A DNA stretch of 64,000 nt from Zea mays (lineage: Eukaryota > Streptophyta > Magnoliopsida > Poales > Poaceae). Below, piece after piece: positions 13,362 to 61,862 of this stretch. The stretch is taken from assembly GCF_902167145.1 (NCBI RefSeq), contig NC_050098.1, positions 80,888,207-80,952,206 on the forward strand, given 5' to 3'. The notes under the pieces were generated by a model that was given only the letters and a program-made list of their open reading frames with translations, was not told the DNA's origin and ran no database searches. How positions within the stretch are numbered: position 1 is the first letter of the stretch; each line of letters starts with the position of its first letter. The position numbers and the translations under genes are program-made.

Positions 13362-14572
13362 ACTGTAACCTTGCTGACGGAGAGTACGTCCTCGTGCCGG
13401 AGCAAGGAGCTGCTCAGGAGGTAGCCCCGGATCGAGCACCAGAGTCTGCACCAGAGGACCTGCCTGCCACTACTTTGGAAGGCAAGCCCCGGTTTTATGC
13501 ATAACCTGTTATTTATGCTATTTTACTGCACTTATTGATTGTAGGATTGAATGTGCACTTAAGTGTAGGAGTTGTTTGAAACCCTAGTTGCATGATCTCA
13601 GGAATCCTGTTGAGATGAATACTAGTATACTAGGTCGAGTAGCTGCTTTCTTAAGTAGGATCTCGGTAGAAGTCGAGTGATTTTTCTAGCACTCGCGCGA
13701 GGTCACGAAATTGGTTGTATCCACTTTCTATCATAATGGTGCTGGTTTGTGGACAACAATCCATGGGGATTGGTTGTCCACGAGATAAAAATTGGAATAA
13801 GGATTAAGGTGTGGTACCTTGTGTCAAGCGTTTGAACGTACTAAACACATACCGAGAAATATGGTAAATCGGTAAGCCTAGTACCTGAGTGAACCTACCC
13901 GCAGATTGCCCTCCTCACGCGACCTGAGACGTGGTCTCCCATTCCGGTTATGGTGGGTACAAGTGCGGTCACTGCACGACGGCAGTCGGGGTCAGTGAGG
14001 CATTGTACGCCAAGGCGGTGAGCCCCTTTCTGTTGCCAGGGAATCGTTGGGGACGGTTGATAAGTGTGGGGACGGAGTGCCCCTACATGTCGTGTGTTTA
14101 GGTTTACCTTGCAAGGTTTAAAAACTCGATTCGGATCGTCTGCTTCTCGCAGCTAATGAGACTGCTTGATCCATGCTGCTACAATGAGTAACAAGTGGAA
14201 TTGTGTTGAGATGATACAAGATGTTGATTGCTAAAAATGTTTGCTACTATGTATGAATAGATAGTACATCTTTAGCCTTAAGAGAGTCACACTTAATTTT
14301 GACAAAGTTAAAAACTTGATTTAGGAACTCAGCTAGTGCTTTTGGCAACCAAACCCCACAGCTAAATAACTGCATGTCTAGAGGTAGAGGAGTAGACTCC
14401 TCACACCGGGTAAGTCTAGCTGAGTATTAGTATACTCAGCCTTGCTTGTGGCATAATTTTTACAGGTTCTCTGGAGGAAATGGTTGCTGGAGTGACTTGG
14501 CCGTCCATCTTGCCACCGGGTTGGACTGTCGAGTGGGACCCTGCCTCGGCTGAGGAGGAGCATGAGGAGTGA
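13362..14572 (+). CDS. LTR micro-gene in S (two exons)
   Basis: Exon a is 13362-13481 (CNLADGEYVLVPEQG.., acidic tail, ending TTGGAAG before GCAAGCCCC). Exon b is 14466-14572, preceded by TTTTTACAG and ending in TGA. Joining them keeps the frame and gives ..LEGSLEEMVAGVTWPSILPPGWTVEWD..EEEHEE. The intron is 984 bp, GC-AG, with hairpins at 14384-14400 and about 14417-14436. Exon b is 107 nt, the same as in T, M and X. No in-frame ATG is visible just upstream; it needs either an upstream exon or the ATG inside exon b. Function unknown. Confidence 0.5.
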
Positions 14573-16500: not shown

Positions 16501-17730
16501 CTATTCCTCCTGTTCCTCTCTTGCCGAGGCAGCATCCCAATCGACCGTCCAACCTGGTGGCAGGATGGATGGCCAAGTCACACCATCAACCATGTCTTGA
16601 AGTAAACCTGTAAAAATAGTGCCACAAGCAAGGCTGAGTATACTAATACTCAGCCAGACTTATCCGGTGTGAGGAGTCTACTCCTCTACCTCTAGACAAT
16701 GAAGTTGTTTGGCTGAGCGAGTTTGGTTTGCCAAAAGGACTAACTGAGTCTAAAACAAGTTTTAGCTTCTCAAGTTCTATAATATTCTTTAACACTAGGT
16801 TTGCTCCTGTCTAAGCATACATGGTTACAATCATTTAGTGCAAACAACATAATATCTCACAAAACTTCATTTCACTTCTTACTCGATGCAGCAGCATGGA
16901 TCAAGCAGTCTCATTAGCTGCGAGAAGCAGACGATTTGAATCGAGTTTTAACCTTGCAAGGGAAACCTAAACACACGACATGTAGGAGCACTTCATCCCC
17001 ACACACGTCAACCGTCCCCATTGATTCCCTGGCAACAGAACAGGGCTCACAACCTTGGCATACAATGCTTCACTGACTCTGGCTGTCGTTGTGCAATGAC
17101 CGCACTTGTACCCAACATAGCTAGCATGGGAGACTCTGTCTCAGGTCCAATGACGAGTAAAGTATGCGGGCAGGTTCAATCAGGTACTAAGCTTATCGGT
17201 TACCATATTTCTCGACATGTGTTTAGTATGTTCAAACGCTTGACACACGGTACCACACGTTAATCCTTATTCGAATTTCTGTCTCGTAGATAGGGCATCC
17301 CCATGGATCTGTGTCCACATAAATCATAGTTATAGTATCAAAGTGGATACAACCAATTCTTGACCTCCCGCGAGTGCTGAAAAAATCACTCGACTTCTAC
17401 TGAGATCCTGAATTAGTAAATAGGAGCTACTCGACCTAGCATACTAGTATCCATCTCAAAAGGAATCCTGAGTTCATGCAACTAGGGTTTCAAGCAATTC
17501 CTACACTTAAGTTAATGGTACAAACCTACAAACATTAAGTGTAGTAGAATAGCATATATATAACAGTTATGAATAAAACCGGGCTTGCCTTCAAATGCGA
17601 GTGCGGTGGAAGGTTCCTCGGCGACGGGCTCGGGAGCTGGTTATCGGGCTTGTTCCTGCTGAGCATCTTGCTCTTGAATCAACACGTACTCTCCATCCAC
17701 GAGATTGCAATCTAATGAATGCAAATGCAT
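16501..17730 (-). pseudogene. LTR micro-gene in M (two exons, one stop)
   Basis: An ATG at 17730 opens MHLHSLDCNLVDGEYVLIQEQ.., exon a ending at 17589 (TTTGAAG before GCAAGCCC). Exon b runs 16607-16501, preceded by TTTTTACAG, and ends TAG. The joined frame reads ..FEGLLQDMVDGVTWPSILPPG..WTVDWD..EEQEE. Exon b is 107 nt. The intron is 981 bp, GC-AG. A single TAA in exon a (after EQAR) interrupts it. The rest of the frame is preserved even though M is old enough to have been split by X. Confidence 0.5.
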
Positions 17731-21090: not shown

Positions 21091-22476
21091 ATGTATCGCT
21101 ATTTTGACCACTATACTAAATATTTGTTGGTATACTTGCTGGTTTGTATGTTTGCTTGTTCATGTTGCATAGTTATCGGAGCGTTCGTGACCGTCTCGTG
21201 GAGGCCAGATCTGCAAGTCTACACCAGGCGGTGGAGCCAGAAGCCAGTTCCGCGAGCTCCCCTTCCCCCTTCGCCGAATAAGCACGGCAAGCTCACTGGA
21301 TCCCTTTGATGCATAAATTACCTATGATTTTTCAACCACAACCCTCAGCCTGTTATTTTATGCATGATATGATTTTGAGACAAGTTATTATGGCCACCCA
21401 GCCGCTTGCCGCAATCAATCCCTGATATATATGTTCCAAATGATTTGAGAACAGGTGTGAGTTTTCAAAAGAAAATGCTTTTCAAAATGTGTGTGATGAA
21501 GGGTTTTCACCCTTATCACCTTGTGAGTGGGATAATCAGGGACTCCCTGGTTTAGGGGAGGGCCTAAGGTGATGGCTCAGCTGGTTTAGGCGTGAGCAGA
21601 AGGATTGTCCCCTCATATAAGGACCGGTTTGTCATCTTCACTACCTGTACTCTTTAATAGTACAACCACTCGAGACTGTGTGGGCAGTCACTCAATCTGA
21701 ACTCGTACAGTCCAACCCCAGGGTTATGAAGGCTGGGGAGCACCGGGAGGATAAGGAGGGGGAATGTTTTGTCCGGTTTGGACATGGTGGTGGCCTGACT
21801 CCTTCCGGATAACCGTTAAGGTTAGGACGTGCGGGGAAAGAAAGAGAGTCGGATTCGGGTCTCATTGGCCATGGGATCGCAGAGCCGAACTAGTGGGTAA
21901 AGTGTACCCCTCTGCGCAGAGTTCAAACCTATTCAAATAGTCTGTGTCCATAGGAATGGACGAGTCTGGTATGGTATGACAATTAATGTTTTGTTTTCCA
22001 AAAAAAGAGATGGTTTGAGAAAAGTGGTTTTTAAAAGGTTCGGCGGTTGAGCCGTGAGCTATGGTGGACGGGAAGTCCATTAGCTGTTTTTGAAAATGAA
22101 AACCAGTGGGAAATGCTGAGATACCTGGATGGTTTAGTCCAGGGGATTTTGTTATAATACTGAAAAACTTCCTGCTCCTTTTGGAGAGGATGCGCTTTGC
22201 AAAAATACAAAATGTTTTTCAAAACAACTCTGCATAAAATATTGCTGTTTCTGCAAATTATCCTGAGCTCCACATATTCCATGCATTATATCTGATTTCC
22301 CCATTCCGCGGGTGAAGGTGGGCTGCTGAGTACGTTTGTACTCACCCTTGCTTATTTGTTGTTTTTCAGAAAAAGGAGATCGGGTAAGAGTTACGACTGT
22401 TCCCAACCTTGCCTGTGGCTGTTGGACCGCTGATTTGCTTCGCTGCATATATCGGGCTGCTTCAGCCCCACTCTGA
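21091..22476 (+). CDS. LTR micro-gene in 5' LTR of X (two exons, 100 aa)
   Basis: Exon a is 21091-21286. An ATG opens a frame with a hydrophobic segment (YLLVYLLVCMFACSCCIVIG), then a basic and proline-rich part ending NKH plus one base before GCAAGCTC. Exon b is 22370-22476, preceded by TTGTTTTTCAG, 107 nt including TGA. The joined frame is 303 nt. Exon b reads VRVTTVPNLACGCWTADL.., which can be aligned with VDGVTWPTTLPPGWTVEW of T only loosely; exon length, splice phase, donor type and the preceding hairpin are the stronger link. A possible upstream splice could remove the ATG. Function unknown; the hydrophobic stretch suggests a membrane segment. Confidence 0.45.
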
Positions 22477-33000: not shown

Positions 33001-33754
33001 CGAGGCCCAATGCCTCACCCGCTGAGCGAAAACCTTTGTGCTGATAGGAGATGAGAAAGAGATGTACCAACACAACCCTTCGGGAATACTCCAACTATGT
33101 ATACCTATTAGCCAAGGGTAGGAGTTGCTAGGAGAAATTCACTCAGGGGCTTGCGGGCACCACGCGGTGCCCCGGACCCTCGTTAGCAATGCCTTCAGGC
33201 AAGGGTTTTACTGGCCATCCGCGGTAGCAGACGCTATCAAGATCGTGCGGTCCTACTGAAGGTGCCAGTTCTATGCGAAGCAAACACACATGCCAGCTCA
33301 AGCCCTAAAGATGATCCCAATAATGTGGTCGTTCGCGGTGTGGGGGTTAGACCTCGTTGGTTCTCTGCAAAAGGCACATTTACGCACCTGATGGTCACCA
33401 TCGACAAATTCTCTAAGTGAATCGAGGTCTGGCCCCTCGCCAATATTAAATCCAAGCAGGTGGTCGCATTCTTCACGGATATCATTCATCGCTTCGGGGT
33501 CCCCAATTCAATCATCACTGACAACGGCATCCAGTTCACAGGGAAAAAGTTCTTCAGCCTCTGTAGTGACCATTACATCCATGTAGATTGGTCGGTAGTG
33601 GCTCATCCGAGGTCCAACGGGCAGGTGGAACATGCCAACGTCATGATCCTGCAGGGCCTGAAGCCGAGGATCTTCAATGATCTGAACAAGTTCAGCAAAT
33701 GGTGGCTCACCGAGCTCCCCTTAGTGATCTGGAGCCTAAGAACTACTCTGAGCC
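30004..33754 (+). pseudogene. D gag end and pol, broken
   Basis: In order: zinc knuckle CPYHKGPDKHSLG then a stop (30067); WSDRTITFDRDDHPDH; protease with VLMDGGSSLNIIYADTL (about 30402-30452); WSPSDMPGIPREVVEHFLDI (reverse transcriptase start); VRKKGGKWRMCVDY; FLDAYSGYHHI; TMSFGLRNAGATYQR; the catalytic AYVDDIVVK (31550-31576); FIVSERGIKANPEK; an RNase H remnant; a second, plant-type RNase H (WTMYFDGSLLKTGSG, LDVRGDSQLVIDQV); and the integrase core (IITDNGIQFTG, HPRSNGQVEHAN). Stops appear near 30588, 30971, 31205, 31317, 31442, 31635, 31672, 32456, 32575 and 33415, with several frame changes. The line is broken at 33754 by T and resumes at 49318. Confidence 0.85.
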
Positions 33755-34626
33755 TGTGACACCCCAGTGTCACTCAGGGTTTTTCTCAAATGCCAAACCA
33801 AGAACCATCATTTTATGTGAACCAAAGTAAGCATGAACAACAAAACAAATTAAGTGAGAAAGAATTCACCAAGTATATACTTAAAAGTGTCATGATCAAA
33901 ACCATTGAGACTTTTGAAAGATAAGAATGTGCAACCCTAATTCAAAACCCTAAGTAAACCCCATGAACAAAATTCAAGAAGATGTGAAAAGGGAATGAAA
34001 AGTTTAAAATTTTGAGTTGAGCCAATTATATAAGTTAAAGTATATTTGTTAAGCAACAAGAAAGATTAAGAAGGCTTAGCCCAAATAACTCAAATAAATC
34101 CCCAAATCAGCCCTTAATCAATGAACCCTTAGAGAAATTCAGATTTCTGAATTTCTGAATTTCAGACCTCTTCTCAAAGATCATCTGTGTTCTCTGCTTT
34201 TCCAAACTCGAAGCCAGAAGATCCAAATATCAAAGTCGTGCCAAATTACCTTGAACACATTCTGGGAAAGTTTGAACTCAAACCAAATCCATTTGACACG
34301 GTTTTGGCGCAGCTCAACCTCGGGACCAGGCATTCTGACACTGGCACCTTGGTGACGCTACAACTCCCTGTCCCTAGCCTAAAACCGCACGTCGTCCATA
34401 CACAAAAGACAAAGCTTGGTCTGGTGAACAAATCCCTTGCAGTGATCTTGCCCAAATTCGCGAAGATTTGCTCCCAATCGGCGCTTGAACAGGGGCAGAG
34501 GCAACGGGAACACGTGTTCGACCGCGGCTGACACCCCTGGTTCACGCCCGTTCGCGCACCGTGCCTTCCCCGTGCACGCCCGCGCGCACTCGCCGGTCCA
34601 CGACCGCCCGTGCACCGCGCCGCGCC

Positions 34627-34633
34627 TATAAAG
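34627..34633 (+). promoter_or_regulatory. TATA box, T LTR
   Basis: CGCGCCTATAAAGCC, 872 bases from the LTR start. The equivalents in S (864 from the start) and M (about 880) lie at nearly the same distance. Copy in the 3' LTR at 45502-45508. Confidence 0.7.
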
Positions 34634-36879
34634 CCTTCCCAAGCGCGCCCCACTTCGCCCCGCACTCACCCTCACCGGCCAGCCACTTCCCCTTAGCTCC
34701 GGCGAGCTTAATTCCGCCCGCCATTGCCGCCAGAGCTTCGGCCACCGTGGCCAGCCCACCCCAGCCATCTTCCGGGCAAGCCAGTGCTTCGGCTAGCTCC
34801 GCCAGTAGCCCGTGAAGCTTGCCAAGCCCTCGGACCCGACCGGACTTCACCGGAGGCCCGAGATCAACCTCACCGGACTTCGGTCTTACACCGCCGCGCG
34901 TGGACCGAGCTATCCAGTGAGTTTCTGCCCAATTCCTTTCGCTCATGTCTTCTCTGGCATCCCGTGGACCTCCCTGACCTATTTAATTGAACTACCTCGC
35001 CGTGACCAGGCCGGTCTCCTCACCGCCGACGAGCATCCCCGCCTGCGCGCGTGGACCGACCGACTCCGGCCATCTCCGACGGCGTTCCGCACACCGTTGT
35101 GATCCCCGCGACCTCCCCTTCATCCTCGACCACTTCACCAGAACAGTCTCGCCGCCGGTAAGCCCCTCCGCCCTTTTCTTCGCCGCGGCTACTGTTTAAG
35201 GTAGAAGAAGGACCTCGGGTTAGGTTCTGTAGAACCCGAGGGGTTTTCTGTAATGTCAGCGACTCATGTGAATAGTAACCTAAGGACTGATTCGCGAGGA
35301 AAACTTAGAAAACCGCCAGGGACCCCAGTGCAAAGTGGATTTCCATTAATCAATTCTGTTATTCTTTTTAAAATGACCAGAGAACTTAGAAAATCCATAA
35401 CTTGATGAAATCTTAATAAAAAGTTGTCAAACCAATTTTGCTAGCTCTGGAATATTGTAATCTGTCATTTAAAAATAGTGAACCCTATGCTTTCTGTTCT
35501 AAATTATAGAGTTTAAAATTAAAAACAGAAACCCCCTAAACCTTGTTTAATTAAGGAAAATTAGTTTTTCTTTTGTGCTGAGCTTAAGAAAATTTGTAGA
35601 TGTTTATACCTTGTTTAGACACTGTTTAAAAATAGTGGGAACCCCAGCATTGGAAAATATGATGTAGTTATTCATTTAAAGCTATTTTGTCCAAAACTTA
35701 GAGAAAATCAGAAAGGCCTTAGAAATTAATGAACAGTGATTAATAATATTTTTCCTAGTTTACTTATGCAACAGAGAACCTAGGAAAAATGCAGAGACCA
35801 TTAATTTGGACCAGTTTTTAATTAAGATGCTTTAATTAGCCTTATATAGACTGAAAATCAATTATTAGAATTGCAAAACTATAACCAAAGTGATTAATAA
35901 AAATCCAGTGAACTTATAACCACCAGAGCCCCACTACAAAAATACAGAGCACCCCAGCCCAACTCTTTAAAGAAGGAAATTAAATGCAAAGTGATAATAA
36001 GGCATTTTCCAAATAAATCATGAACAACCCCTATTGATGTGATAATGGGCAACCAAAAATTAGCTAAGTCCCTGAGGAGACAATCCACCAGAGAAAAATG
36101 CAAACCCATGAAGAAGTAGTAAACTCATACCTTTTGCTAGTGATTAAAGAGAAAGACCACTTAATTCAAATAATGCAAACCACCCCTTCCCTTAAGCAAA
36201 AAGAAGCCAAACTTCAGAATGATTGCTCTTGCACAAAATAATAACCAAGAAAAATAAGAACTCTGTTGTTTGATGTTTTTCAAATATAGTGGTAGTAGAA
36301 AGCACCTATTTGGCTAGAAACTTGAGAAAACCATAAGAAAATAATTAAAAGGTATTAATGGCTAAAAATTTGTATCAAGTAATGTTATGACACCTAAAAG
36401 TCAGCAAAAATGAGTTTTAAAGAATTACCCACTGTTAAATAATAGTTGTAGTTCAAAGCACCCCCTTCTGCCCTAAAATTTGGTAATTTTGTCCAGAGAA
36501 AACCATTCACCTTCTGACCCCCAAATTTTGTGACAGAGAATCATACACCAGTAACAAGCCACTGTAATTTTTGCAGAATTTTTGGAATTTTATAAAAGCA
36601 ACTTGTAGTTCAAACCTACTCCAAAACATTAAAAGAATAAAAGGAAGGAATGAACCTCATCCCAATGAGTCTAACTTGAGAACTTACCAATTCTCCCTAA
36701 GACTTAAAAATAATTCAGTGGAACCCCAAAAAAAATAAAACTACCACTTACCTTAGCTAAGTTTAACCCAATTTACCAAGTATACCACCCAAGGGTTTTA
36801 CATAAGTAAAGTTAACTTGTTTAAACTCAAAAGATCATACCCCTTTAAAGTTGTAATTTCTAAAAGCACATATCATATC

Positions 36880-38126
36880 ATGCATATATCTTACGCATTG
36901 CATTCATTAGATTGTAATCTTGCCGACGGAGAGTACGTGCTCATCCCCGAGCAAGGACCTGTCCAAGAGGAGGACCAGGAGCAGGCTTCAGAGGCTGCTA
37001 TTGAGGATCTCCCCGCAGCCCCAGCAATTGAAGGCAAGCCCCGGTCTTATGCATAACCATGTTATTATATGCTACTTTACTACACTTAATGCTTGTAGGA
37101 TTGCAGTGTGCACTTAAGTGTAGGAGTTGCTTGAAACCTCTAGTTGCATGAACTTAGGATTCCTTTTTGAGATGAATACTAGTATGCTAGGTCGAGTAGC
37201 TGCTTGCTAATCAGGATCTCGGTAGAAGTCGAGTGATTTTTCTAGCACTCGCGCGAGGTCAGGAATTGATTGTATTCATCTTGATAATGGGATTTATGTT
37301 GGTCTATGGACTTGGATCTAGGGAGGATGCCTTGTCCATGAGACGGGAAAAATGAATTAAGGATTAATGTGTGGATACCTGAGTCAAGCTTTTGAACGTA
37401 CTAAGCACATGCCGGGAAAAATGGTAACCGGTAAACCTAGTACCTGAGTGAAGCCGGGCACGGACTTTATCCCTCATGCGACCTGAGACTGGGTCTCCCA
37501 TGCTAGCTATGGTGGGTACAAGTGCAGTCACTGCACGGCGGCAGCCGGGGTCAGTGGAGCATTGTATGCCAAGGCGGTGAGGCCTGGACGCGAACGGGGA
37601 ATCGATGGGGACGGTTGTCATGTGTGGGGTCGGAGTACCCTGACATGCCGTGTGTTTAGGTTTACCTTGCAAGGTTTTAAAAACTCGATTCGAATCGTCT
37701 GCTTCTCGCAGCTAATGAGACTGCTTGATTCCTTGTACTGCATCGAGTAAGAAGTGAAATGTGGTTATATGAGATAACTTGTTGATTGAACTAATTGATT
37801 GTTACCATGTATGCTTAGAAGGAGCAAATCTAGCTAAGTTAATGATGGCAGAATTTGAAAAGCTAAAATTGACTTTAGAAACAGCTAGTGCTTTTGACAA
37901 ACCAAACCCCTCAGCCAAACAGCTGCATAGTCTAGAGGTAGAGGAGTAGACTCCTCACACCGGTTATGTCTAGCTGAGTATTAGTATACTCAGCCTTGCT
38001 TGTGGCACAATTTTTGCAGGTACCATGCAGGAATTGGTTGATGGTGTGACTTGGCCTACCACCCTGCCACCGGGTTGGACGGTCGAGTGGGATGTTGCTC
38101 CGGCAGGAGAGGAGCATGAGGAGTAG
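36880..38126 (+). CDS. LTR micro-gene in 5' LTR of T (two exons, 86 aa)
   Basis: Exon a 36880-37033 starts with ATG (MHISYALHSLDCNLADGEY..) and continues with a glutamate/glutamine/alanine-rich part ending AIEG. The donor is GAAG|GCAAGC, the GC-AG consensus. The intron is 986 bp and ends TTTTTGCAG (38019). Exon b 38020-38126 gives TMQELVDGVTWPTTLPPG then WTVEWD and an acidic end. The joined length is 261 nt, in frame. Compared with S and M, exon b has no indels, and in the core only silent changes and one E/D change occur among the fixed residues. Unspliced, frame a stops shortly after the donor (..KPRSYA). Function unknown. Confidence 0.55.
37941..37993 (+). other. Two hairpins upstream of the micro-gene acceptor
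   Basis: GAGGAGT-AG-ACTCCTC (37941-37956) and CTGAGTAT-TAGT-ATACTCAG (37974-37993) are perfect inverted repeats. The second ends 26 bases before the acceptor at 38019. Both recur in S and M. X keeps the second as TGAGTAC-GTTT-GTACTCA, 25 bases from its acceptor, with a T-A pair replaced by C-G. That pairing change supports a real stem. Confidence 0.65.
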
Positions 38127-38439
38127 TGGGCTAGGCCTTGCCCATTTCCTCAGTACCGACGACATCGATTATCCGCTGCACTTTAATTTATGAACTTTAT
38201 TTGCTACTCAAAAACTCCGATTTATGTAATAACTCCGTACTTAATTTGAGGTTTCCTGTTTTATTGTATTTCTTCTGTGACTCACCTTCGAGTGAGATTG
38301 TGGGATTTGATCCTGGTTAAGTGGCTTCATCAGACTAGATCTGAGGGACTGACGGGTTATTCCGATTTAAGTGTGTTACGGCCCCTGAGGCGTGACTTAG
38401 GCACTTAAGCTGGAATAATTCGGGCGGTTCTGCCACATC

Positions 38440-38451
38440 TGGTATCGGAGC
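38440..38451 (+). other. Primer binding site, T
   Basis: TGGTATCGGAGC, one base different from the canonical initiator-Met tRNA match, two bases after the LTR end. Confidence 0.85.
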
Positions 38452-38814
38452 AAATTCCACCACAGAGAAGGACAATAAACCATGAATACCGATTTTCAAA
38501 ATCTAAAACTTGCCTAGAAACTACTACGGATCGTCAGGACTAGATCGCTAGACCTAGGACGAAAGGCCTTAGGCATAGAGGGAGAAATAGGTGGCTAATT
38601 AAGTAGGCCCTGTGGGCCAATACTTATATTTTTAAGGATGCCCTAAAAAGGCACCCTATTTTCTTTTGAGAGGCAACGTTTCTTACAGCATGCATGCATT
38701 ATAAAACACAAAGAGGAATTAAAATCTGAGCTAACCCCTTTTCTTTAAAATCATCCGAGCTCTCTTTTTCTTTTTCCTTCCACCATAATCTTTATCTTTG
38801 ATTCCCTTCCGCAG

Positions 38815-39690
38815 ATGAATTCACCCACCCCCACCAGTGGAGGAGACTCTCGTTTCATTTCTGACTTCCTTTCTCGCGATGGCTTTCCCTCCATCTTGTG
38901 GGAAGTGCTTAACTCCGCCTGTTACCCTACGCCCCCTTTGTACACAGTGCAGTTGTATGAGGAGCATCGGGTACCTCGTTGTCGGGTCTGGCTAACTTTG
39001 GAGGCTCATCCCCTTCAGCCGGGTTGGCGTTCTCTTGACTCTGAGACGATTGGACTCAGGACGGACGATACCGTTGAGGCAGCAGCCATGAAGACTCTGA
39101 CGACTTTCTGTGGCTACCATCCCCTGGAGATGGTGATGCACCCCTTGGGACTCTTCCCTGCTGAGAAGAAGGATGATCCCATGTGGTGTAACCGCGTGAG
39201 CCATGTGAAGAATGTGTGGGCAATGTATCCTGACTTGGTTGGGAGGGTCACTGTTCAGTGCATGAGTGCGCTGTACAGCCTTCAGGCCCTTCAGAGCGAT
39301 GCTATGACACTTCTTGCTAACACCGCTCAGACTGCCAAGCTCACTCTCGACAGTCGGGAAGATTTTGTGGTCGACCTATCCACAGAGTTGGTGGAGAAGG
39401 ATCTGCAAGTGGAAAGGCTGAGCCAGCGTATCGCTACCCTGGAGCAGCAAGTGGAGATCCGAGACAACACTATTGATGTCTTGGAGAACCAGCTTCACGA
39501 TGTGCAGAGGGAACTCGAGGAAGCCAATGACCACTTGGACATGCACCACCTGGAGATGGAGGCCAATGAAGCAGGAAGCGAGGGAGAAGAGGCTCCCGAG
39601 GAGCTAGGACCAGCCCCTGGTGCCAATGGGACTACCTCCGCGATGCCTCCTTCACCCGTATCCAGTGTCGCTTCCACCGCTCAGGGTTAA
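38815..39690 (+). CDS. Pre-gag protein of T (291 aa)
   Basis: A complete ATG-to-TAA frame between the LTR and gag, on the sense strand. Its ATG is immediately preceded by CCCTTCCGCAG, a strong splice-acceptor sequence. Residues 20-100 carry DGFP, then beta-like strands and an alanine-rich helix (AAAMKTLTTFC). Residues 175-245 form a heptad-like coiled coil (LVEKDLQVERLSQRIATLEQ..). The end is acidic then Pro/Ser/Thr-rich. The related, broken frame in X (22822-23852) shows the gene belongs to this element group and is not chance. Role unknown; an RNA-binding or assembly function is a guess from the fold-like pattern and coiled coil. Confidence 0.75.
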   Translation: MNSPTPTSGGDSRFISDFLSRDGFPSILWEVLNSACYPTPPLYTVQLYEEHRVPRCRVWLTLEAHPLQPGWRSLDSETIGLRTDDTVEAAAMKTLTTFCGYHPLEMVMHPLGLFPAEKKDDPMWCNRVSHVKNVWAMYPDLVGRVTVQCMSALYSLQALQSDAMTLLANTAQTAKLTLDSREDFVVDLSTELVEKDLQVERLSQRIATLEQQVEIRDNTIDVLENQLHDVQRELEEANDHLDMHHLEMEANEAGSEGEEAPEELGPAPGANGTTSAMPPSPVSSVASTAQG

Positions 39691-39947
39691 GCAGTCGCTT
39701 CGACGTTTTTAGGCGGATAGAAACCTATGCGAGCTTAGTAGTATCACATTTTGGACTAGGCTTGTGGGTACCTTCCCCTGATTAATGTAACCCTGTAAAC
39801 TTTTGATATCTGTGGGATCCTTGTCACCGTGTTATCTTCATTTCGAACCTAATATTATGATTATGGCATTTTCCTTCCATATGAGATGATATCTTGTCGT
39901 TCGGAAATGTGAGTTGGGATAACAATGGCGACAATCTCTGTTTTCAG

Positions 39948-42900
39948 ATGGCAGCTAGGCAGCGTCGCGGGCAGAATGAGCAAGCTCCCCCGCCACCTCC
40001 CCCAGCTCCCACAGTGCAGGAGCTGATGGCCCAGCAGAATGAGATTCTGCGACAGCTCTTGCAGCGCCAGCCCCACCCTCAGCATCATGGTGGAGGCCAG
40101 CATCAGCGACCTCCGGCTATGGCAACATACCAGGAGTTTCTGAGCACGCAGCCGCCCTTGTTCACCAAGGCAGAGGATCCGTTGGACGCCGACGTATGGC
40201 TTCGCGTCGTCGAGTCCAAGTTTCCCCTCCTCACAGGAGACTGCCCTGATGAGGCCAAGGCTCGCTTCGCCGCACAGCAGCTTCGCGGCCCTGCTCGGAC
40301 TTGGTGGGACCACTTCCGTGCTATGCTCCCCGCTGATCGTGAAGTATCTTGGGAGGAATTCAAGACTGCCTTCAGAGGACACCACATTCCAGCTGGCATT
40401 CTTGATCGGAAGTTGAATGAATTTCTGGCCCTTAATCAAGGAACCCGCACGGTACTGCAGTATGCGCAAGCCTTCAACGACTTATGCCAGTATGCAGGGT
40501 ATCATGCTGATTCTGATGAAAAGAAGAGGGATCGCTTCCGCAGGGGTCTCAATACCAAGCTGCGGGAACGACTCAACACTGTCGGGACTGATAGCTTCAA
40601 TGAGTTGGTCAACATGGCCATCTCTCAGGAGGATTGCATTGTTGCTCACCGGGCAGAGAAGAAGAGAAAGGCACCAATGGCAGCACCATCCGCTCAGGCT
40701 CAGAGGTTCTGGATTGTTTCTCACAATCAGAGCAGGGGTTTTCAGCAGCAGGCAGGCAGATGGGTGATCAGGCCACCTCAGCAGCAGCAGCAGCCGGCAC
40801 CCAACCGCTATCCAGCTCCCGCCCCAAGGAACAATCAGCCTCCGCAGCAGCAGCAGTTCCGCCAGGGCAATGGGAACAAGTGTTTCACTTGTGGCAATGT
40901 GGGCCACTATGCCAAGAATTGTCCCAGGAACCAGCAGAGGCAGATGCCAGCACCAAATCAAGACAAGGGAAGAAAGCAGAAGGTGCAAGTCAGGCAAGGG
41001 AAGCTCAACTTCACTGCTCTAGAGGAAGTGCCAGAAGGAGCTCCTATCATGACCGGTACCTTTTCAGTTTATAATCAACCTGCTTTAATTCTGTTTGATT
41101 CTGGTGCATCTCATAGTTTCATTAGCCAAAAGTTCAGTGCTAATTGCAAACTGCCATTCTCTCACTCAAAAGGGTCATTCGTGATAGTCACACCTGGGGG
41201 TAAAATTGCAACTAATCAATTAAACCAAAGTGTGCCTATTCAAATGGGAAGCCACATTATCAAAACCACTCTTCTTGTATTGGGATTGGAAAATGTGGAC
41301 ATTATTCTAGGAGCAAATTGGATGACCTTGCACCAAGTTGTGCTTGATGTAGCCAGTCGTACCGTGGAAGTTAATTCTCCTTTCTGCGGGAATTTCACTT
41401 TGATTCTGCCTAGTCAGGGTTCTTCTCAGTCATGTGCTTTCTCTATGACGGAGTTACCCCTGAAGAAGATCCCAATGGTCTGTGAGTATGCAGATGTCTT
41501 TCCTGATGAATTGCCGGGAATGCCACCGGACCGGGATATTGAATTCGCCATCGAGTTGCAACCGGGAACGGCCCCAATTTCCAAGAGGCCCTACCGAATG
41601 TCACCCGCTGAGTTGGCAGAGTTGAAGAAGCAGTTGCAAGAGTTGCTGGATAAGGGATTCATTCGCCCAAGCACTTCGCCTTGGGGATGTCCAGCACTGT
41701 TTGTGAAGAAGAAGGATGAAAGCTTGAGGCTGTGTATAGACTACCGCCCTCTTAATGCGGTAACTATCAAGAACAAGTATCCTTTGCCTCGTATTGATGT
41801 TCTCTTTGACCAGTTGGTCGGAGCCAAGGTGTTTTCCAAGATAGACCTTCGCTCTGGCTACCATCAGATCAAAATACGAGCAAGTGATATTCCGAAGACG
41901 GCATTCTCAACCAGATATGGGCTATATGAATTCTTGGTGATGTCATTCGGGCTGACAAATGCACCAGCATATTTCATGTATCTGATGAATTCTGTTTTTA
42001 TGCTGGAATTGGACAAGTTCGTGGTGGTTTTCATCGATGATATCCTGGTGTACTCAAAGAACGAAGAAGAACATGCCGGGCATTTGCATGTAGTGCTTCA
42101 ACGTCTGCGAGAGCACCACCTTTATGCCAAGCTATCCAAGTGTGATTTTTGGCTAAAGGAAATCAAATTCTTGGGTCACACTATCTCTCAGGCTGGAATA
42201 GCTGTTGATCCTGACAAAGTGCAAGAGGTGATGAACTGGAGGCCACCAACGACTGTTCGCCAGATTCGGAGTTTTCTGGGATTGGCTGGTTATTACCGAA
42301 GATTTATTCCGGACTTCTCTCGAATTGCGAAGCCTATTACTGAGTTGCTGAAGAAAGAAGTCAAATTTGTGTGGAGTCAGAAGTGCGAAGAAGCCTTCCA
42401 TGCATTAAGGCAGCATCTGACCACAGCACCAGTATTAGCGCAACCCGACATCAGCAAGCCTTTTGATGTATATTGTGATGCCTCTGGCACCGGGCTAGGT
42501 TGTGTCTTGATGCAAGAGAACCGAGTCATTGCTTATGCCTCAAGAGCACTCTGGCCTCATGAGCAAAATTATCCCACTCATGACCTTGAGTTAGCAGCAG
42601 TGGTTCATGCATTGAAGATGTGGAGGCACTATCTAATGGGAACCCACTGCAACATCTTCACTGATCATAAGAGCCTTAAGTACATTTTTACTCAGGCTGA
42701 TCTCAACATGAGGCAGAGAAGATGGCTAGAGCTGATCAAGGATTATGACCTGGAGGTACATTATCACCCAGGGAAAGCTAATGTGGTAGCAGATGCCTTG
42801 AGTCGGAAGTTGCAATGCAATTGTATTCTGATGGATTCTCGCATTAACACCTTGTGTGATGAGTTGAGCAAGATGCAAATTGAAGTGATTTCTTCTGGTT

Positions 42901-44378
42901 CTTTGTCTCAAATGGCTGTTGAGCCAGCTTTGCAAGACCAGATTATCATGGCCCAGCTCAGTGACAAGGGAGTGCAGATTATTAAGAAGAATCTCCATCA
43001 GAAGGTTGAGAAGTATAATTGTTTCCGCCAGGATGAGAAAGGTGTGTTATGGTTCAAAAGCAGATTGGTGATTCCTAAGGACCGGGATCTCAAGAGGAAA
43101 ATTTTGGATGAGGCTCATCTCTCCAAATTCTCTATGCATCCGGGAAGCACCAAGATGTACCATGATTTGAAGCTTTTGTACTGGTGGACCAGAATGAAGA
43201 GGGAGATAGCCCAGTATGTATCAGAGAGTGATACCTGTCAGAGGATTAAGGCAAGCCACTTGAAGTCCGCTGGAGCCTTGCAACCACTGTCCGTACCTTC
43301 GTGGAAGTGGGACGACATCAGCATGGATTTCATTGTGGGTCTGCCCAACACCTCTCGTCATCATGATTCGATTTGGGTTATTGTGGACCGATGGACGAAA
43401 GTAGCACATTTCCTTCCTGTGCACACCACTGATAAGGCTCAGAAATATGCAGAATTGTATATTGACCGGATCGTGTGTTTGCATGGATTACCTCGGACCA
43501 TTGTTTCTGACCGAGGAGCCCAATTTGTTGCCAGATTTTGGGAACAATTGCAAGAGTCTTTGGGAACCAAGCTAATCAGGAGTTCAGCTTACCACCCACA
43601 GACTGATGGTCAGACGGAAAGGGTAAACCAGATTCTGGAGGATATGCTGAGAGCTTGTGCGATCGATTGTGGAAAGAACTGGGATAAGCACCTCTCCTTG
43701 GCAGAGTTTGCTTATAACAATAGTTATCAATCCAGCCTAAAGATGGCACCTTTTGAAGCTCTCTATGGAAGAAGGTGCAGGACACCACTCAATTGGTCTC
43801 AGCCTGGTGAAAGAGAAGTTTTTGGACCTGACTTAGTGGCTGAAGCCGAAAGGAAGGTCAAGCTAATCAGGAAGAATCTAGAAGCTGCTCAGGCCAGGCA
43901 GAAGAGCTATCATGATAGAAGAAGGAAACCTCTCCAATTCGAGGTGGGAAGTTTTGTATACCTCAAGGTATCACCCACCAAGGGAGTGCAGAGGTTTGGG
44001 ATCAAAGGCAAGCTAGCCCCTCGTTACATTGGACCTTATGAGATCATAAAAGCATGTGGACCCGTGGCATACAAGCTGAAGTTACCTTCAAGGATGTCTG
44101 CCATTCACAGTGTATTCCATGTATCTCAGCTGAAGAAGTGTGTTCGATTGCCGACTGAGATCATAGCAGAGCCAGAATTGGAGATAGAGCCAGATCTCTC
44201 GTACCAAGAGTACCCCTCCAAGGTTCTGGATTGCAAAGAAAGATCAACTCGGGCTAAATCAATCAAGATGTTCAAGGTCCAGTGGAGTAATCACTCAGAG
44301 GAGGAAGCTACTTGGGAAACCGAGGAATTCTTAAGATCCAACTTCCCCGATTGCCTACCTAAGGAAGCTGGTACGTAA
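39948..44378 (+). CDS. Gag-Pol polyprotein of T with chromodomain (1476 aa)
   Basis: The start is the ATG of [12 protein letters not shown], preceded by TCTGTTTTCAG, another acceptor-like site. Domains by residue: gag capsid region about 80-260; zinc knuckle [14 protein letters not shown] 312-325; protease FDSGAS with D384; reverse transcriptase with FIDD 695-698; RNase H starting YCDASGTG 842; integrase HPG zinc region near 1065; catalytic D1127, D1188, E1224 (D-D35-E); C-terminal chromodomain about 1405-1465 (YPSKVLD..FKVQW..EATWE). The frame has no stop or shift. One oddity: the integrase zinc finger reads SESDTC where the family has CxxC, so the first cysteine is serine. The chromodomain is known to steer this lineage to heterochromatin. 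Confidence 0.95.
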
Positions 44379-44594
44379 TCACCCCCAACCCCTTCCCCTG
44401 CCTTTCGAATCTAATTTCCAAAAATATGATCTTAATCCAGAATGAAGTAACTATAAAGTAAAACTTAAAAAGACTTCCTTCTGAAGTTGCAAAGAGAATG
44501 TCATTCGAAGAGCAGTTTTGCCCTAATAATAACAATCATCACACTTTTCCCTATCAGTCTCACCCTTCGCTTCACCCCGGGAGGACTCTGGCCC

Positions 44595-44629
44595 GAATCT
44601 CGGGACGAGATTCCTTTAAGGGGGAAGGC
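44595..44629 (+). other. Hairpin and polypurine tract of T
   Basis: GAATCTCG-GGA-CGAGATTC (44595-44613) is directly followed by CTTTAAGGGGGAAGGC ending at the 3' LTR. The purine tract primes plus-strand synthesis. The same hairpin occurs at the same place in X (25691-25710), although the internal regions are otherwise different. Confidence 0.8.
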
Positions 44630-47600
44630 TGTGACACCCCAGTGTCACTCAGGGTTTTTCTCAAATGCCAAACCAAGAACCATCATTTTATGTGAACCAA
44701 AGTAAGCATGAACAACAAAACAAATTAAGTGAGAAAGAATTCACCAAGTATATACTTAAAAGTGTCATGATCAAAACCATTGAGACTTTTGAAAGATAAG
44801 AATGTGCAACCCTAATTCAAAACCCTAAGTAAACCCCATGAACAAAATTCAAGAAGATGTGAAAAGGGAATGAAAAGTTTAAAATTTTGAGTTGAGCCAA
44901 TTATATAAGTTAAAGTATATTTGTTAAGCAACAAGAAAGATTAAGAAGGCTTAGCCCAAATAACTCAAATAAATCCCCAAATCAGCCCTTAATCAATGAA
45001 CCCTTAGAGAAATTCAGATTTCTGAATTTCTGAATTTCAGACCTCTTCTCAAAGATCATCTGTGTTCTCTGCTTTTCCAAACTCGAAGCCAGAAGATCCA
45101 AATATCAAAGTCGTGCCAAATTACCTTGAACACATTCTGGGAAAGTTTGAACTCAAACCAAATCCATTTGACACGGTTTTGGCGCAGCTCAACCTCGGGA
45201 CCAGGCATTCTGACACTGGCACCTTGGTGACGCTACAACTCCCTGTCCCTAGCCTAAAACCGCACGTTGTCCATACACAAAAGACAAAGCTTGGTCTGGT
45301 GAACAAATCCCTTGCAGTGATCTTGCCCAAATTCGCGAATATTTGCTCCCAATCGGCGCTTGAACAGGGGCAGAGGCAACGGGAACACGTGTTCGACCGC
45401 GGCTGACACCCCTGGTTCACGCCCGTTCGCGCACCGCGCCTTCCCCGTGCACGCCCGCGCGCACTCGCCGGTCCACGACCGCCCGTGCACCGCGCCGCGC
45501 CTATAAAGCCTTCCCAAGCGCGCCCCACTTCGCCCCGCACTCACCCTCACCGGCCAGCCACTTCCCCTTAGCTCCGGCGAGCTTAATTCCGCCCGCCATT
45601 GCCGCCAGAGCTTCGGCCACCGTGGCCAGCCTACCCCAGCCATCTTCCGGGCAAGCCAGTGCTTCGGCTAGCTCCGCCAGTAGCCCGTGAAGCTTGCCAA
45701 GCCCTCGGACCCGACCGGACTTCACCGGAGGCCCGAGATCAACCTCACCGGACTTTGGTCTTACACCGCCGCGCGTGGACCGAGCTATCCAGTGAGTTTC
45801 CGCCCAATTCCTTTCGCTCATGTCTTCTCTGGCATCCCGTGGACCTCCCTGACCTATTTAATTGAACTACCTCGCCGTGACCAGGCCGGTCTCCTCACCG
45901 CCGACGAGCATCCCCGCCTGCGCGCGTGGACCGACCGACTCCGGCCATCTCCTACGGCGTTCCGCACACCGTTGTGATCCCCGCGACCTCCCCTTCATCC
46001 TCGACCACTTCACCGGAACAGTCTCGCCGCCGGTAAGCCCCTCCGACCTTTTCTTCGCCGCGGCTACTGTTTAAGGTAGAAGAAGGACCTCGGGTTAGGT
46101 TCTGTAGAACCCGAGGGGTTTTCTGTAATGTCAGCGACTCATGTGAATAGTAACCTAAGGACTGATTCGCGAGGAAAACTTAGAAAACCGCCAGGGACCC
46201 CAGTGCAAAGTGGATTTCCATTAATCAATTCTGTTATTCTTTTTAAAATGACCAGAGAACTTAGAAAATCCATAACTTGATGAAATCTTAATAAAAAGTT
46301 GTCAAACCAATTTTGCTAGCTCTGGAATATTGTAATCTGTCATTTAAAAATAGTGAACCCTATGCTTTCTGTTCTAAATTATAGAGTTTAAAATTAAAAA
46401 CAGAAACCCCCTAAACCTTGTTTAATTAAGGAAAATTAGTTTTTCTTTTGTGCTGAGCTTAAGAAAATTTGTAGATGTTTATACCTTGTTTAGACACTGT
46501 TTAAAAATAGTGGGAACCCCAGCATTGGAAAATATGATGTAGTTATTCATTTAAAGCTATTTTGTCCAAAACTTAGAGAAAATCAGAAAGGCCTTAGAAA
46601 TTAATGAACAGTGATTAATAATATTTTTCCTAGTTTACTTATGCAACAGAGAACCTAGGAAAAATGCAGAGACCATTAATTTGGACCAGTTTTTAATTAA
46701 GATGCTTTAATTAGCCTTATATAGACTGAAAATCAATTATTAGAATTGCAAAACTATAACCAAAGTGATTAATAAAAATCCAGTGAACTTATAACCACCA
46801 GAGCCCCACTACAAAAATACAGAGCACCCCAGCCCAACTCTTTAAAGAAGGAAATTAAATGCAAAGTGATAATAAGGCATTTTCCAAATAAATCATGAAC
46901 AACCCCTATTGATGTGATAATGGGCAACCAAAAATTAGCTAAGTCCCTGAGGAGACAATCCACCAGAGAAAAATGCAAACCCATGAAGAAGTAGTAAACT
47001 CATACCTTTTGCTAGTGATTAAAGAGAAAGACCACTTAATTCAAATAATGCAAACCACCCCTTCCCTTAAGCAAAAAGAAGCCAAACTTCAGAATGATTG
47101 CTCTTGCACAAAATAATAACCAAGAAAAATAAGAACTCTGTTGTTTGATGTTTTTCAAATATAGTGGTAGTAGAAAGCACCTATTTGGCTAGAAACTTGA
47201 GAAAACCATAAGAAAATAATTAAAAGGTATTAATGGCTAAAAATTTGTATCAAGTCATGTTATGACACCTAAAAGTCAGCAAAAATGAGTTTTAAAGAAT
47301 TACCCACTGTTAAATAATAGTTGTAGTTCAAAGCACCCCCTTCTGCCCTAAAATTTGGTAATTTTGTCCAGAGAAAACCATTCACCTTCTGACCCCCAAA
47401 TTTTGTGACAGAGAATCATACACCAGTAACAAGCCACTGTAATTTTTGCAGAATTTTTGGAATTTTATAAAAGCAACTTGTAGTTCAAACCTACTCCAAA
47501 ACATTAAAAGAATAAAAGGAAGGAATGAACCTCATCCCAATGAGTCTAACTTGAGAACTTACCAATTCTCCCTAAGACTTAAAAATAATTCAGTGGAACC

Positions 47601-49312
47601 CCAAAAAAAATAAACCTACCACTTACCTTAGCTAAGTTTAACCCAATTTACCAAGTATACCACCCAAGGGTTTTACATAAGTAAAGTTAACTTGTTTAAA
47701 CTCAAAAGATCATACCCCTTTAAAGTTGTAATTTCTAAAAGCACATATCATATCATGCATATATCTTACGCATTGCATTCATTAGATTGTAATCTTGCCG
47801 ACGGAGAGTACGTGCTCATCCCCGAGCAAGGACCTGTCCAAGAGGAGGACCAGGAGCAGGCTTCAGAGGCTGCTATTGAGGATCTCCCCGCAGCCCCAGC
47901 AATTGAAGGCAAGCCCCGGTCTTATGCATAACCATGTTATTATATGCTACTTTACTACACTTAATGCTTGTAGGATTGCAGTGTGCACTTAAGTGTAGGA
48001 GTTGCTTGAAACCTCTAGTTGCATGAACTTAGGATTCCTTTTTGAGATGAATACTAGTATGCTAGGTCGAGTAGCTGCTTGCTAATCAGGATCTCGGTAG
48101 AAGTCGAGTGATTTTTCTAGCACTCGCGCGAGGTCAGGAATTGATTGTATTCATCTTGATAATGGTATTTATGTTGGTCTATGGACTTGGATCTAGGGAG
48201 GATGCCTTGTCCACGAGACGGGAAAAATGAATTAAGGATTAATGTGTGGATACCTGAGTCAAGCTTTTGAACGTACTAAGCACATGCCGGGAAAAATGGT
48301 AACCGGTAAACCTAGTACCTGAGTGAAGCCGGGCGCGGACTTTATCCCTCATGCGACCTGAGACTGGGTCTCCCATGCTAGCTATGGTGGGTACAAGTGC
48401 GGTCACTGCACGGCGGCAGCCGGGGTCAGTGGAGCATTGTATGCCAAGGCGGTGAGGCCTGGACGCGAACGGGGAATCGATGGGGACGATTGTCATGTGT
48501 GGGGTCGGAGTACCCTGACATGCCGTGTGTTTAGGTTTACCTTGCAAGGTTTTAAAAACTCGATTCGAATTGTCTGCTTCTCGCAGCTAATGAGACTGCT
48601 TGATTCCTTGTACTGCATCGAGTAAGAAGTGAAATGTGGTTATATGAGATAACTTGTTGATTGAACTAATTGATTGTTACCATGTATGCTTAGAAGGAGC
48701 AAATCTAGCTAAGTTAATGATGGCAGAATTTGAAAAGCTAAAATTGACTTTAGAAACAGCTAGTGCTTTTGACAAACCAAACCCCTCAGCCAAACAGCTG
48801 CATAGTCTAGAGGTAGAGGAGTAGACTCCTCACACCGGTTAAGTCTAGCTGAGTATTAGTATACTCAGCCTTGCTTGTGGCACAATTTTTGCAGGTACCA
48901 TGCAGGAATTGGTTGATGGTGTGACTTGGCCTACCACCCTGCCACCGGGTTGGACGGTCGAGTGGGATGTTGCTCCGGCAGGAGAGGAGCATGAGGAGTA
49001 GTGGGCTAGGCCTTGCCCATTTCCTCAATACCGACGACATCGATTATCCGCTGCACTTTAATTTATGAACTTTATTTGCTACTCAAAAACTCCGATTTAT
49101 GTAATAACTCCGTACTTAATTTGAGGTTTCCTGTTTTATTGTATTTCTTCTGTGACTCACCTTCGAGTGAGATTGTGGGATTTGATCCTGGTTAAGTGGC
49201 TTCATCAGACTAGATCTGAGGGACTGACGGGTTATTCCGATTTAAGTGTGTTACGGCCCCTAAGGCGTGACTTAGGCACTTAAGCTGGAATAATTCGGGC
49301 GGTTCTGCCACA
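44630..49312 (+). repeat. 3' LTR of T
   Basis: 4683 bp, same length as the 5' LTR, with about 20 base differences by eye (for example 45266, 45341, 48164, 48373). TSD GAGCC follows at 49313-49317. Confidence 0.95.
47755..49001 (+). CDS. LTR micro-gene in 3' LTR of T (two exons)
   Basis: Exons 47755-47908 and 48895-49001, with the same GC donor, acceptor and 107 nt terminal exon as in the 5' LTR. I see no differences from the 5' copy within the exons, while the intron and leader have several. With so few changes overall this alone is weak evidence of selection. Confidence 0.55.
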
Positions 49313-55165: not shown

Positions 55166-55807
55166 TGTTGGGGACCTTCGGCATCCGAAGGTCCTCAAAA
55201 ACAGGATTTAACAGTATTTCTGGAGTATAATGTGTGAACAGGTATCTTCGGACTCAGTTCGGCATCACAGCAGACCAGAATAATACGAAGGTCGGTACAG
55301 CGCCGAAGGTGTAAGCAGGAAAGCTTCGGCGTGACAGCAGAAAGTGGAACCGACTTAAAGATGAAAAGGCTATTTAGACCTCAACAGATTACTATAGAAT
55401 TATTATCAACTGTAAAGGGCATGAATGTAATTTTGTATGGGTTGTGTCCCGCGCCTATAAATAGGTGAACAGTACTCTCGTACTGTTCACGCTGACTTGG
55501 CATTCGCTTTTTGCGTCACGCTTGTACTATCATTTCCTTCCAGTTGAAGGTACACTTGTAATTCAACGATACTCCTGTTTATGCTTAATAATAATGCATA
55601 ATTGCGCATGTTGTCATTTATATTTCTTACATTTCATCCTTCGTCATTATATAATGAATCTATGAAGGTATCCCCTTCATGACCTTCGTCCGCAAACTAT
55701 TATACCCTAAGGGAAATAATGTTTCGAAGGACGAAGGACTTTAACAATTAACATCTTCTGTGTTGCCTTGTTCTTAACCCATAGCATTTGAGAACAAGTC
55801 CCCAACA
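55166..55807 (+). repeat. 5' LTR of C
   Basis: TGTTGGGG..CCCCAACA ends give an 8-base terminal inverted repeat. A second inverted repeat GACCTTCGG-CAT-CCGAAGGTC lies at 55174-55194. TATAAATA at 55456-55463. Confidence 0.95.
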
Positions 55808-55826
55808 TTGGCGCCCACCTCCGGTG
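55808..55826 (+). other. Primer binding region, C
   Basis: TTGGCGCCCACCTCCGGTG directly follows the LTR. TGGCGCC starts are usual for Tat-lineage elements and differ from the initiator-Met site used by the others here. I do not assign the tRNA. Confidence 0.6.
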
Positions 55827-55881
55827 AACTCACTTCCACTCTAAGTTTTTTGAACACCTTCGGCGATCATAAACCTTCGTT

Positions 55882-57399: not shown

Positions 57400-57579
57400 C
57401 AAATATCCTACCTTAATAGCAATCTTTTTCATTCAGTTTTATTTTCTGTAATAAAGGACATTGTTTAGGCTTCATGTAATTAGTTTCGTTGATCCCTACA
57501 AGGAAAATATATTTTCTTTACAAGCTTATATTGATAACAAAGAGGACCTTCGAACTATCGAAAATTCTTCGAAGCAATA

Positions 57580-57868
57580 AAAAGTCGTTCTAAGGAACGC
57601 AGAGTAAGTTTGCCGAAGTCACAAAAAGTCGTTCCAAAGGGAGCGCAGTGTAAGTTTTCTTCTCCAAAGTCGTTCCAAAAGGAATGCAGAGCATACAGCG
57701 AAAAGTCAACGCTGATACCGCCTAAGTAAAAGGCGAAGCGCGAAAAGTCAACGCGAATACCGCTGAAAGTAAAAGGCGAAGAAGCTCCTAAGGGAGGCTT
57801 ACAGCGAAAAATAAACGCTGATTCCGCTGAAGTAAAAGGCGAAGAAGCTCCTAAGGGAGGCTTATAAA
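57580..57868 (+). repeat. Tandem repeats in place of pol
   Basis: Three copies of AAAGTCGTTC(C/T)AA..GGA.CGCAG (57580-57605, 57625-57650, 57666-57690) are followed by three copies of a unit like GCGAAAAGTCAACGCTGATACCGC..AAGTAAAAGGCGAAG (57698-57740, 57741-57783, 57802-57845). A GCTCCTAAGGGAGGCTTA tail follows the last two. It lies exactly where pol would start. Confidence 0.85.
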
Positions 57869-58332
57869 AGATTGTGTTTTATTGCAGGGATGCGTATGTA
57901 TCTTCGGAATAAACATCATCTCACATAACATAACATCATCGCATCATTTCGCATAGCATAAGCATCATACATCATTTTGCACATGGCACAAGAGGTAGAC
58001 ACATTATCAATCTACAGAAGAACGCTTTGAAAAAAGGGAGAAATCAGTCACAAAAAAGATACATCATTGATCTTCGGAAGTGTAGCTTCGGAAAATATTT
58101 TCACGAAGCCTGGATATTATTCATCAGAACATTGGATATTGTTGTGACAAAGATAAATTTTTCTTCACGAAGCATGAAAAGAAGGGAAGGTGTTTTTTCG
58201 TCAAAGACTCAAAAGCGGTACGTGTAAAGTTTCATGCATCGTAAAGAATTGACTAACAAAAATAGGTATATTACATTTGAGGTTACAAAATGTTACAGTA
58301 TATTACATTTCCGAAGTTTTTTACAAAAATAC
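57869..58332 (+). other. C spacer between repeats and antisense gene end
   Basis: AT-rich sequence with repeated CATCAT words (57905-57975). It would be the 3' untranslated region of the antisense gene read on the minus strand. No frame supported. Confidence 0.5.
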
Positions 58333-61557: not shown

Positions 61558-61862
61558 CTTCGGAGACACTAAAAACTATTTTCAAAACCGAAGCTTCAAA
61601 ACTAAAGGCTTAACAAATTTTAGTGCACAAGAGCTAAAAATTGAGTGAGCAGGAGCAATTGGCCAGAGAGCGTGTCAAATGAGTTTGCGGTATGACTGTA
61701 TTTATACGCCAAGAGCGTTGAAAATTGAAAGACCCCGCTTGTCAGTGAATGTTGCTATTCTAGCAAAGGGAAGGTGTTTTTTCGGACCTTCGGCGTAAAG
61801 CCTTCGTCCATGTCGCAATCTAAATTTTTTATTTCAAACAAATTAATATTGCAAGGGGCTAC

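Follow-up and report, generated by a model that had tools for sequence, protein, structure and literature searches.

The window, that is the whole 64,000-nucleotide stretch of Zea mays DNA analysed here (contig NC_050098.1), contains a complete-looking LTR retrotransposon, T, whose features are all read on the plus strand. Its LTRs lie at 33751..38437 (4687 bp) and 44626..49312 and are 99.55% identical, and the 5′ LTR is followed by TGGTATCGGAGC, which we take to be a tRNA-type primer site. The interval 34626..35157 holds a TATA box (34626) and a proposed non-coding leader exon 1, which ends in CCGCCG|GTAAGCC. Between the 5′ LTR and gag-pol stands an additional ORF of 291 aa (ORF0, 38815..39690), seen in T only and giving 0 Pfam matches, with an ATG directly 3′ of CCTTCCGCAG|, a likely 3′ splice site. 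Gag-pol codes from 39894 to 44370, where we propose a phase-1 donor, AAGCTG|GTACGTAA; the contiguous ORF ends at 44378. Pfam recognises gag, protease, RT, RNase H, integrase zinc-binding and chromodomain segments in it. Gag, protease (RVP_2), RT and RNase H exceed their Pfam cut-offs, whereas the integrase core rve scores 27.1 against a cut-off of 32.6; the chromodomain (PF00385, residues 1443-1488, at the integrase C-terminus) reaches 27 bits against 25.1. Both features of Tekay chromoviruses, the C-terminal integrase chromodomain and the 5′ additional ORF between LTR and gag-pol, are thus present in T.

The 3′ LTR carries the two tail exons that we propose to be used: exon a (47786..47908; 36911-37033 in the 5′ LTR copy) and exon b, which includes the stop (48895..49001; 38020-38126). 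They are separated by intron 2, a GC-AG intron of 986 nt (47909..48894; 37034-38019). A proposed intron 1 of 3415 nt (44371..47785) would contain the pol stop, the polypurine tract, U3 and the part of the 3′ LTR before exon a, and ends in TGCATTCATTAG|. First-look searches of the 2.18-Gb genome returned at least 1048 candidates for a T probe and at least 945 for a probe from S, another LTR type of the window. T itself lies in or beside a frame (33421-33759) resembling, by eye only, the integrase core of another element, and at 55166-62504 stands a further element with paired LTRs of 642 bp, whose plus strand bears a gag ORF and whose minus strand bears an ORF resembling Transposase_28.

Two LTR exons under coding selection

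The first-pass annotation of this DNA, made from the letters alone, had described two frames with shared splice signals in four LTR types, S, M, X and T. The description stands for S, M and T and fails for X. The donor G|GCAAGC follows 13481 (S), 17589 (M, minus strand) and 37033 (T), the acceptors are T-rich CAGs, and the terminal exon b measures 107 nt with an identical phase in the three types (14466-14572 in S, plus strand; 16607-16501 in M, minus strand; 38020-38126 in T). Exon a spans 120 nt in S (13362..13481, plus strand) and 123 nt in M (17589..17711, minus strand). The joined frame, reported there as open but for a stop in M, is open in S and T, is interrupted in M by that one in-frame stop in exon a, and is not conserved in X.

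The X1 copy, taken as the fourth example, owes its open joined frame to a one-base insertion. Ten X copies were fetched and both exons were cut out of eight copies other than X1; seven of these eight stop soon past the junction, the open one being L110, with indels of its own, and variation by codon position (18, 17, 17 and 25, 23, 12) has no codon phase, so X was rejected as a fourth case. X-type hairpins number 2555 in the genome, and backwards control patterns 0. In aligned copies of X-type LTRs (21174-22476) a donor-like GGTAAG lies a few bases past the exon b acceptor, possibly marking a mini-exon. The hairpin GCTGAGTATTAGTATACTCAGC is perfect in both LTRs of T (37973-37994 and 48848-48869), about 25 nt upstream of the exon b acceptor; 13 aligned copies show no variation in it, the fetched ones having been chosen by it. 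X LTRs show GAGTAC..GTACTC at its place, a compensated change.

Conservation by itself says little here. Between S and T, intron 2 is 82% identical, exon a 72% and exon b 79%, and because the intron outdoes the exons, identity alone gives no support for coding. We therefore looked at codon phase over many copies, the comparison of exons with intron that the first-pass annotation had itself proposed. A pattern search gave 144 places, from which 70 of 100 listed were fetched (L001-L070); the pattern requires a non-G past the hairpin, which biases the sample to mutated or divergent copies. Ten loci of a separate lineage, V (L012-L015, L019, L026, L028, L031, L053, L069), and six in which either exon is interrupted or replaced (L001, L002, L007, L045, L050, L056) were left out, and the remaining 54 together with S, M and T form a set of 57 copies, in which changes were assigned to branches by parsimony on an intron-based tree.

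Codon phase is present in both exons, above that of the intron windows. On internal branches, 89 of the 136 changes of exon a are at third positions, as are 51 of the 78 of exon b, a share of 0.65 each (column permutation, p = 1e-5 and 1.5e-4, respectively), while in the intron control the best phase of 281 overlapping windows reaches at most 0.57, with its 95th percentile at 0.52. The same branches carry 80 synonymous (S) and 56 nonsynonymous (N) changes in exon a and 51.5 S and 26.5 N in exon b, with no new stop in either; the median N/S of 1448 windows is 2.9, and among them exon b takes 4th place and exon a 36th, the best 20 overlapping or adjoining exon b. Terminal branches have 110.5 S and 175.5 N in exon a, 91.5 S and 121.5 N in exon b, and 10 new stops per exon. 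Pairwise pN/pS in six sequences, over 1446 windows in all frames, places exon b (38022) 6th and exon a (36913) 9th; the windows above them mostly overlap exons a or b, and an intron window at 37646 (0.37, with 7 stops) ranks between the two.

Stops and indels point the same way. Either exon has stops in the sense frame in 9 of the 57 copies, against 38 (exon a) and 18 (exon b) for the antisense frame sharing its third position. Antisense coding is disfavoured by these stops; internal-branch N/S separates the strands in exon b (39 S and 38 N antisense against 51.5 and 26.5) and not in exon a (77 S and 59 N, near the sense 80 and 56). The annotation had held that indels as common in the exons as in the intron would speak against a protein. 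Eight hand-chosen representatives differ by 22 indels in the exons, every one of them a multiple of three; in intron 2 this holds for 5 of 477 and past the stop for 25 of 201. Non-triplet exon indels occur in 4 of the 57 copies (L011, L025, L029, L070), none of which is a representative. Of the 57 copies, 40 can be read through the joined frame to its stop and 17 cannot; L003, L027 and L029 have in-frame TAGs early in exon b, which arise on terminal branches of the tree used. Exons a and b are under coding selection, and the proposal of an acidic peptide under purifying selection with a GC-AG intron is borne out in three of the four LTR types for which it was made.

Where does this coding begin? 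A frame start at 36880 had been suggested; the coding signal starts instead at 36910-36912, just past a conserved TAG| acceptor. In a position-by-position count, third-base changes start at 36912, immediately past the motif TTGCATTC[AG][AT]TAG. The phase ends at the GC donor of exon a, restarts after the CAG and fades at the exon b stop. Intron 2 has a GC donor in 52 of 57 copies and a GT donor in none, and an AG acceptor in 55. With a 3′ splice site where its coding starts and the GC donor where it ends, exon a is to be read as an internal exon.

The V lineage serves as a control. Where the region was compared, its sequence is unrelated to T exon a and not alignable to it. Exon b, counted in nine of the ten V loci (L013 left out), is broken, with 106 or 109 nt in eight of the nine copies, and its few internal changes (7, 5, 5 by codon position) show no codon phase, while the V intron is still alignable. 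The V lineage has apparently spread without the tail.

The end of pol and its candidate donors

An internal exon a needs a coding exon before it, and the end of pol offers a candidate. In T, pol ends CCT AAG GAA GCT G|GT ACG TAA, a phase-1 donor-like site, G|GTACGTAA, that overlaps the stop. We fetched 36 regions upstream of LTRs and found the pol end in 10, one of which (L091, ending FPRSS) was set aside as a different element. In T and all nine fetched loci of its group (10/10), phase-1 GTANNTAA stands at the same place. The full GTACGTAA occurs in 7 of the 10, T included: L071, L072, L073, L092 and L101 read G|GTACGTAA and L093 reads A|GTACGTAA, the others being L084 (G|GTATGTAA), L076 (G|GTACTTAA) and L096 (G|GTACATAA). 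Variation by codon position is 120, 57, 289 before this site and 107, 91, 110 after it, so that the codon phase ends there. A 44-nt block between pol and the 3′ LTR (44474-44517, CTTCCTTCTGAAGTTGCAAAGAG...CATTCGAAGAGCAGTT) is nearly invariant in the 10 pol-end loci, though non-coding. Database proteins matching the T pol end, among 120 listed of 7968 scored, have T as last residue in 98 cases and M in 10, with a GT end in 86 and a GM end in 6; the T and M endings fit the expectation from GGT AYG TAA.

The pol-end site scores 3.8 bits as a donor. Higher scores, above 5, are reached in the T internal region by three phase-1 sites that have an ATG upstream: 40994, which is not in the pol frame, and two in phase 1 of that frame, 44008 (GC, 7.3 bits) and 43042 (GT, 5.2 bits). 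No fetched locus matched at 43042. The site at 44008, TCAAAG|GCAAGC, keeps GCAAG in six of seven loci (T and 5 of 6 others; L084 has GCAAAT), and because it is conserved we treat it as a separate alternative, in which the tail would be spliced from inside pol and replace the chromodomain, or both donors would be used. This we think unlikely. The 44008 site codes for a conserved stretch of protein, and the invariance of its glycine third base is unremarkable given that 11 of the 39 four-fold codons do not vary among the seven loci; conservation of a single third base, here or at the pol end, is not telling. It is the pol-end site, instead, that coincides with the end of coding. We thus tentatively prefer the pol-end site over 44008 as the putative donor, because coding stops there and because GTANNTAA is kept in 10/10.

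A putative spliced tail of Pol

Exons a and b are probably the last two coding exons of the gag-pol message, joined to pol at the pol-end donor and encoding a tail of Pol. Both exons are under selection, their boundaries fall at conserved splice signals, the phases match, and the end of pol has a conserved donor-like site. Splicing itself, pol as the upstream exon, the pol site that acts as donor and the role of the tail are inferred. Transcription would start at the TATA box of the 5′ LTR, run through gag-pol and terminate beyond exon b in the 3′ LTR. The gag-pol message would then optionally be spliced twice at its 3′ end: the donor at 44370|44371, overlapping the pol stop (GGT ACG TAA), would be spliced to exon a (47786), about 3.4 kb away, and exon a to exon b (48895-49001) through the GC-AG intron. 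Pol would thereby gain an acidic tail of 75-76 residues (pI about 4) after the integrase chromodomain, with the core GVTWPxxLPPGWTV[ED]WD, whereas unspliced RNA would give a Pol ending at the donor, with no tail. The match of donor and acceptor phases extends across families, and the second in-phase site inside pol, 44008, is likewise conserved. Against a Pol tail we count the higher-scoring phase-1 sites in the pol frame, the non-triplet indels in 4 of 57 copies, the 17 copies with a frame that is not open, and an in-frame ATG that all 57 copies have early in exon b.

This ATG could open a short leader ORF in addition to the tail, and it bears on another arrangement, in which exons a and b would follow leader exon 1 in the 5′ LTR and be translated from a non-AUG start, or the exon b AUG would open a short upstream ORF. 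The exon 1 donor CCGCCG|GTAAGCC is indeed conserved, being identical in 12 of 12 S-type copies and, by eye, in 16 of 17 aligned copies (L068 has GATAAG). Even so, we hold this arrangement to be quite improbable, since internal changes in exon 1 (205, 195, 202 by codon position in 17 copies) lack codon phase and speak against coding there, all 17 copies, inspected by eye, have a stop in the joining frame near the exon 1 end, and a start in exon b leaves the selection on exon a unexplained. A coding upstream exon was likewise rejected in S-type LTRs, where the best window in the region to exon a reached z 3.1 in 12 copies, which we take as chance; between TATA and exon a, no ATG of S is kept in all 12 S-type copies, the best being kept in 9. 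The conserved leader donor (35157) is matched by a pyrimidine-rich CAG (38814) directly 5′ of the ORF0 ATG, an acceptor seen in T only; the pair points to a leader intron. Exons a and b in their 5′ LTR copies would be spliced out with it.

The first-pass annotation had favoured a self-standing two-exon micro-gene within the LTR, which would start at an AUG just upstream of exon a. Coding selection is strong, and T and many T-like copies do have an in-frame ATG 10 codons upstream of exon a; nevertheless, an in-frame AUG before the upstream stop is found in only 27 of 57 copies and not at all in the S copy of the window, about ten S-type copies have one base inserted immediately before exon a, where codon phase is absent, and the phase begins at a 3′ splice site. 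We disfavour this reading as very improbable. That the frames are a by-product of a conserved structured RNA is scarcely credible, for although the intron is more conserved than the exons and there is slight covariation (alifold covariation term -0.87; two-sided change in 18 of 239 pairs), the codon phase, the 0 new stops on internal branches and the triplet-only indels of the representatives argue for protein, and Rfam gives 0 matches at the gathering threshold in 33751-49312. Because a phase-1 donor-like site ends pol in T and 9/9 loci and a micro-gene would lack a conserved start codon, a spliced Pol tail is the best reading.

What might the tail be? It matches 0 Pfam families at E up to 10, its best E in the PDB is 0.52, and viral_contigs contain no relative. 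The LPPGW motif resembles, in our estimation, MBD and WW domains, an identity rejected on these Pfam and PDB results. None of 279 database proteins checked combines motifs of two exons. Fourteen database alignments extend across a junction, and the three of them viewed (P0088, P0246, P0259) are unspliced read-through. Protein matches to exon a (120 listed of 953) align to that exon, and most of 26 viewed run on into residues that the intron would encode; the matching proteins look like plant DNA in metagenomes. A genome-wide search for the exon a-exon b junction pattern, run without a positive control, gave 0 matches and no processed copy.

Relation to known elements

The following comparison, drawn from the available parts of the open-access papers cited, indicates that an LTR-encoded end of Pol is already known, though as a contiguous frame. 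In CRM chromoviruses, all of group A, the end of the Pol frame is encoded contiguously in the 3′ LTR (PMC3059260), and so it is in beet Bingo1-4 and Bingo7 of the Reina clade, while the other clades are stated to have their chromodomain upstream of the polypurine tract (PMC3605345). T resembles those other clades in the position of its chromodomain, and it would resemble CRM group A and Bingo in having the end of Pol in the 3′ LTR. Unlike in CRM and Bingo, T pol stops at 44378, about 250 nt before the LTR (44626), so that there is no uninterrupted frame, and the extension would need two introns and lie deep in a 4.7-kb LTR. Long-LTR elements of the Tekay/Del type, such as rice Retrosat2 (PMC3485330), beet Bongo (PMC3605345) and sunflower Tekay (PMC11728184), share with T the chromodomain, the 5′ additional ORF or the long LTRs. 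Sunflower Tekay has a 5′ aORF (PMC11728184), and the gag-pol stop of beet Bongo3 is upstream of the 3′ LTR (PMC3605345); for none of the three do the available parts of these papers describe a coding exon or intron in the LTR.

Splicing is familiar from other LTR elements. A 2025 review describes plant LTR elements as generally without introns, with exceptions that include Ogre and EVADE (PMC12786077). Splicing alters the translated part of the protein in Ogre and EVADE (PMC6317226, PMC12786077) and in sunflower Tyran and Varan (PMC7730604), and env of barley Bagy2 is spliced (PMC7264820); unlike in our proposal for T, no splicing from pol to an LTR exon is described for these five in the available text. 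The CERV protein of C. elegans Cer1 also comes from spliced LTR-retrotransposon RNA, but it is a separate protein, whereas the tail of T is proposed as part of Pol (PMC10309623). In the open-access literature, which is the scope of our search, the accessible text yielded no description of a spliced LTR-encoded Pol tail, so that the spliced version is without a precedent found there.

At the level of a guess, the tail tunes integrase targeting or partner binding, and the spliced RNA, having lost polypurine tract and U3, serves as message only. Because intron 1 would take out both, a tailed Pol would come solely from non-template RNA. This raises the tentative possibility that splicing acts as a switch between genome and message, in which template RNA would give a tail-less integrase, and the RNA for the tailed integrase, without polypurine tract and U3, would be no template. 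Were there such a switch, the 44008 donor used with the same acceptors could swap the chromodomain for the tail and yield integrases with different targeting.

If the proposed tail is real, the Pol protein of an abundant retrotransposon group has been read about 75 residues short, its actual end lying behind two introns in a repeat that is usually taken as non-coding. Coding constraint inside long LTRs would then be explained, and there would be a testable handle on the separation of genome RNA from message RNA and on the targeting of chromovirus integrases.
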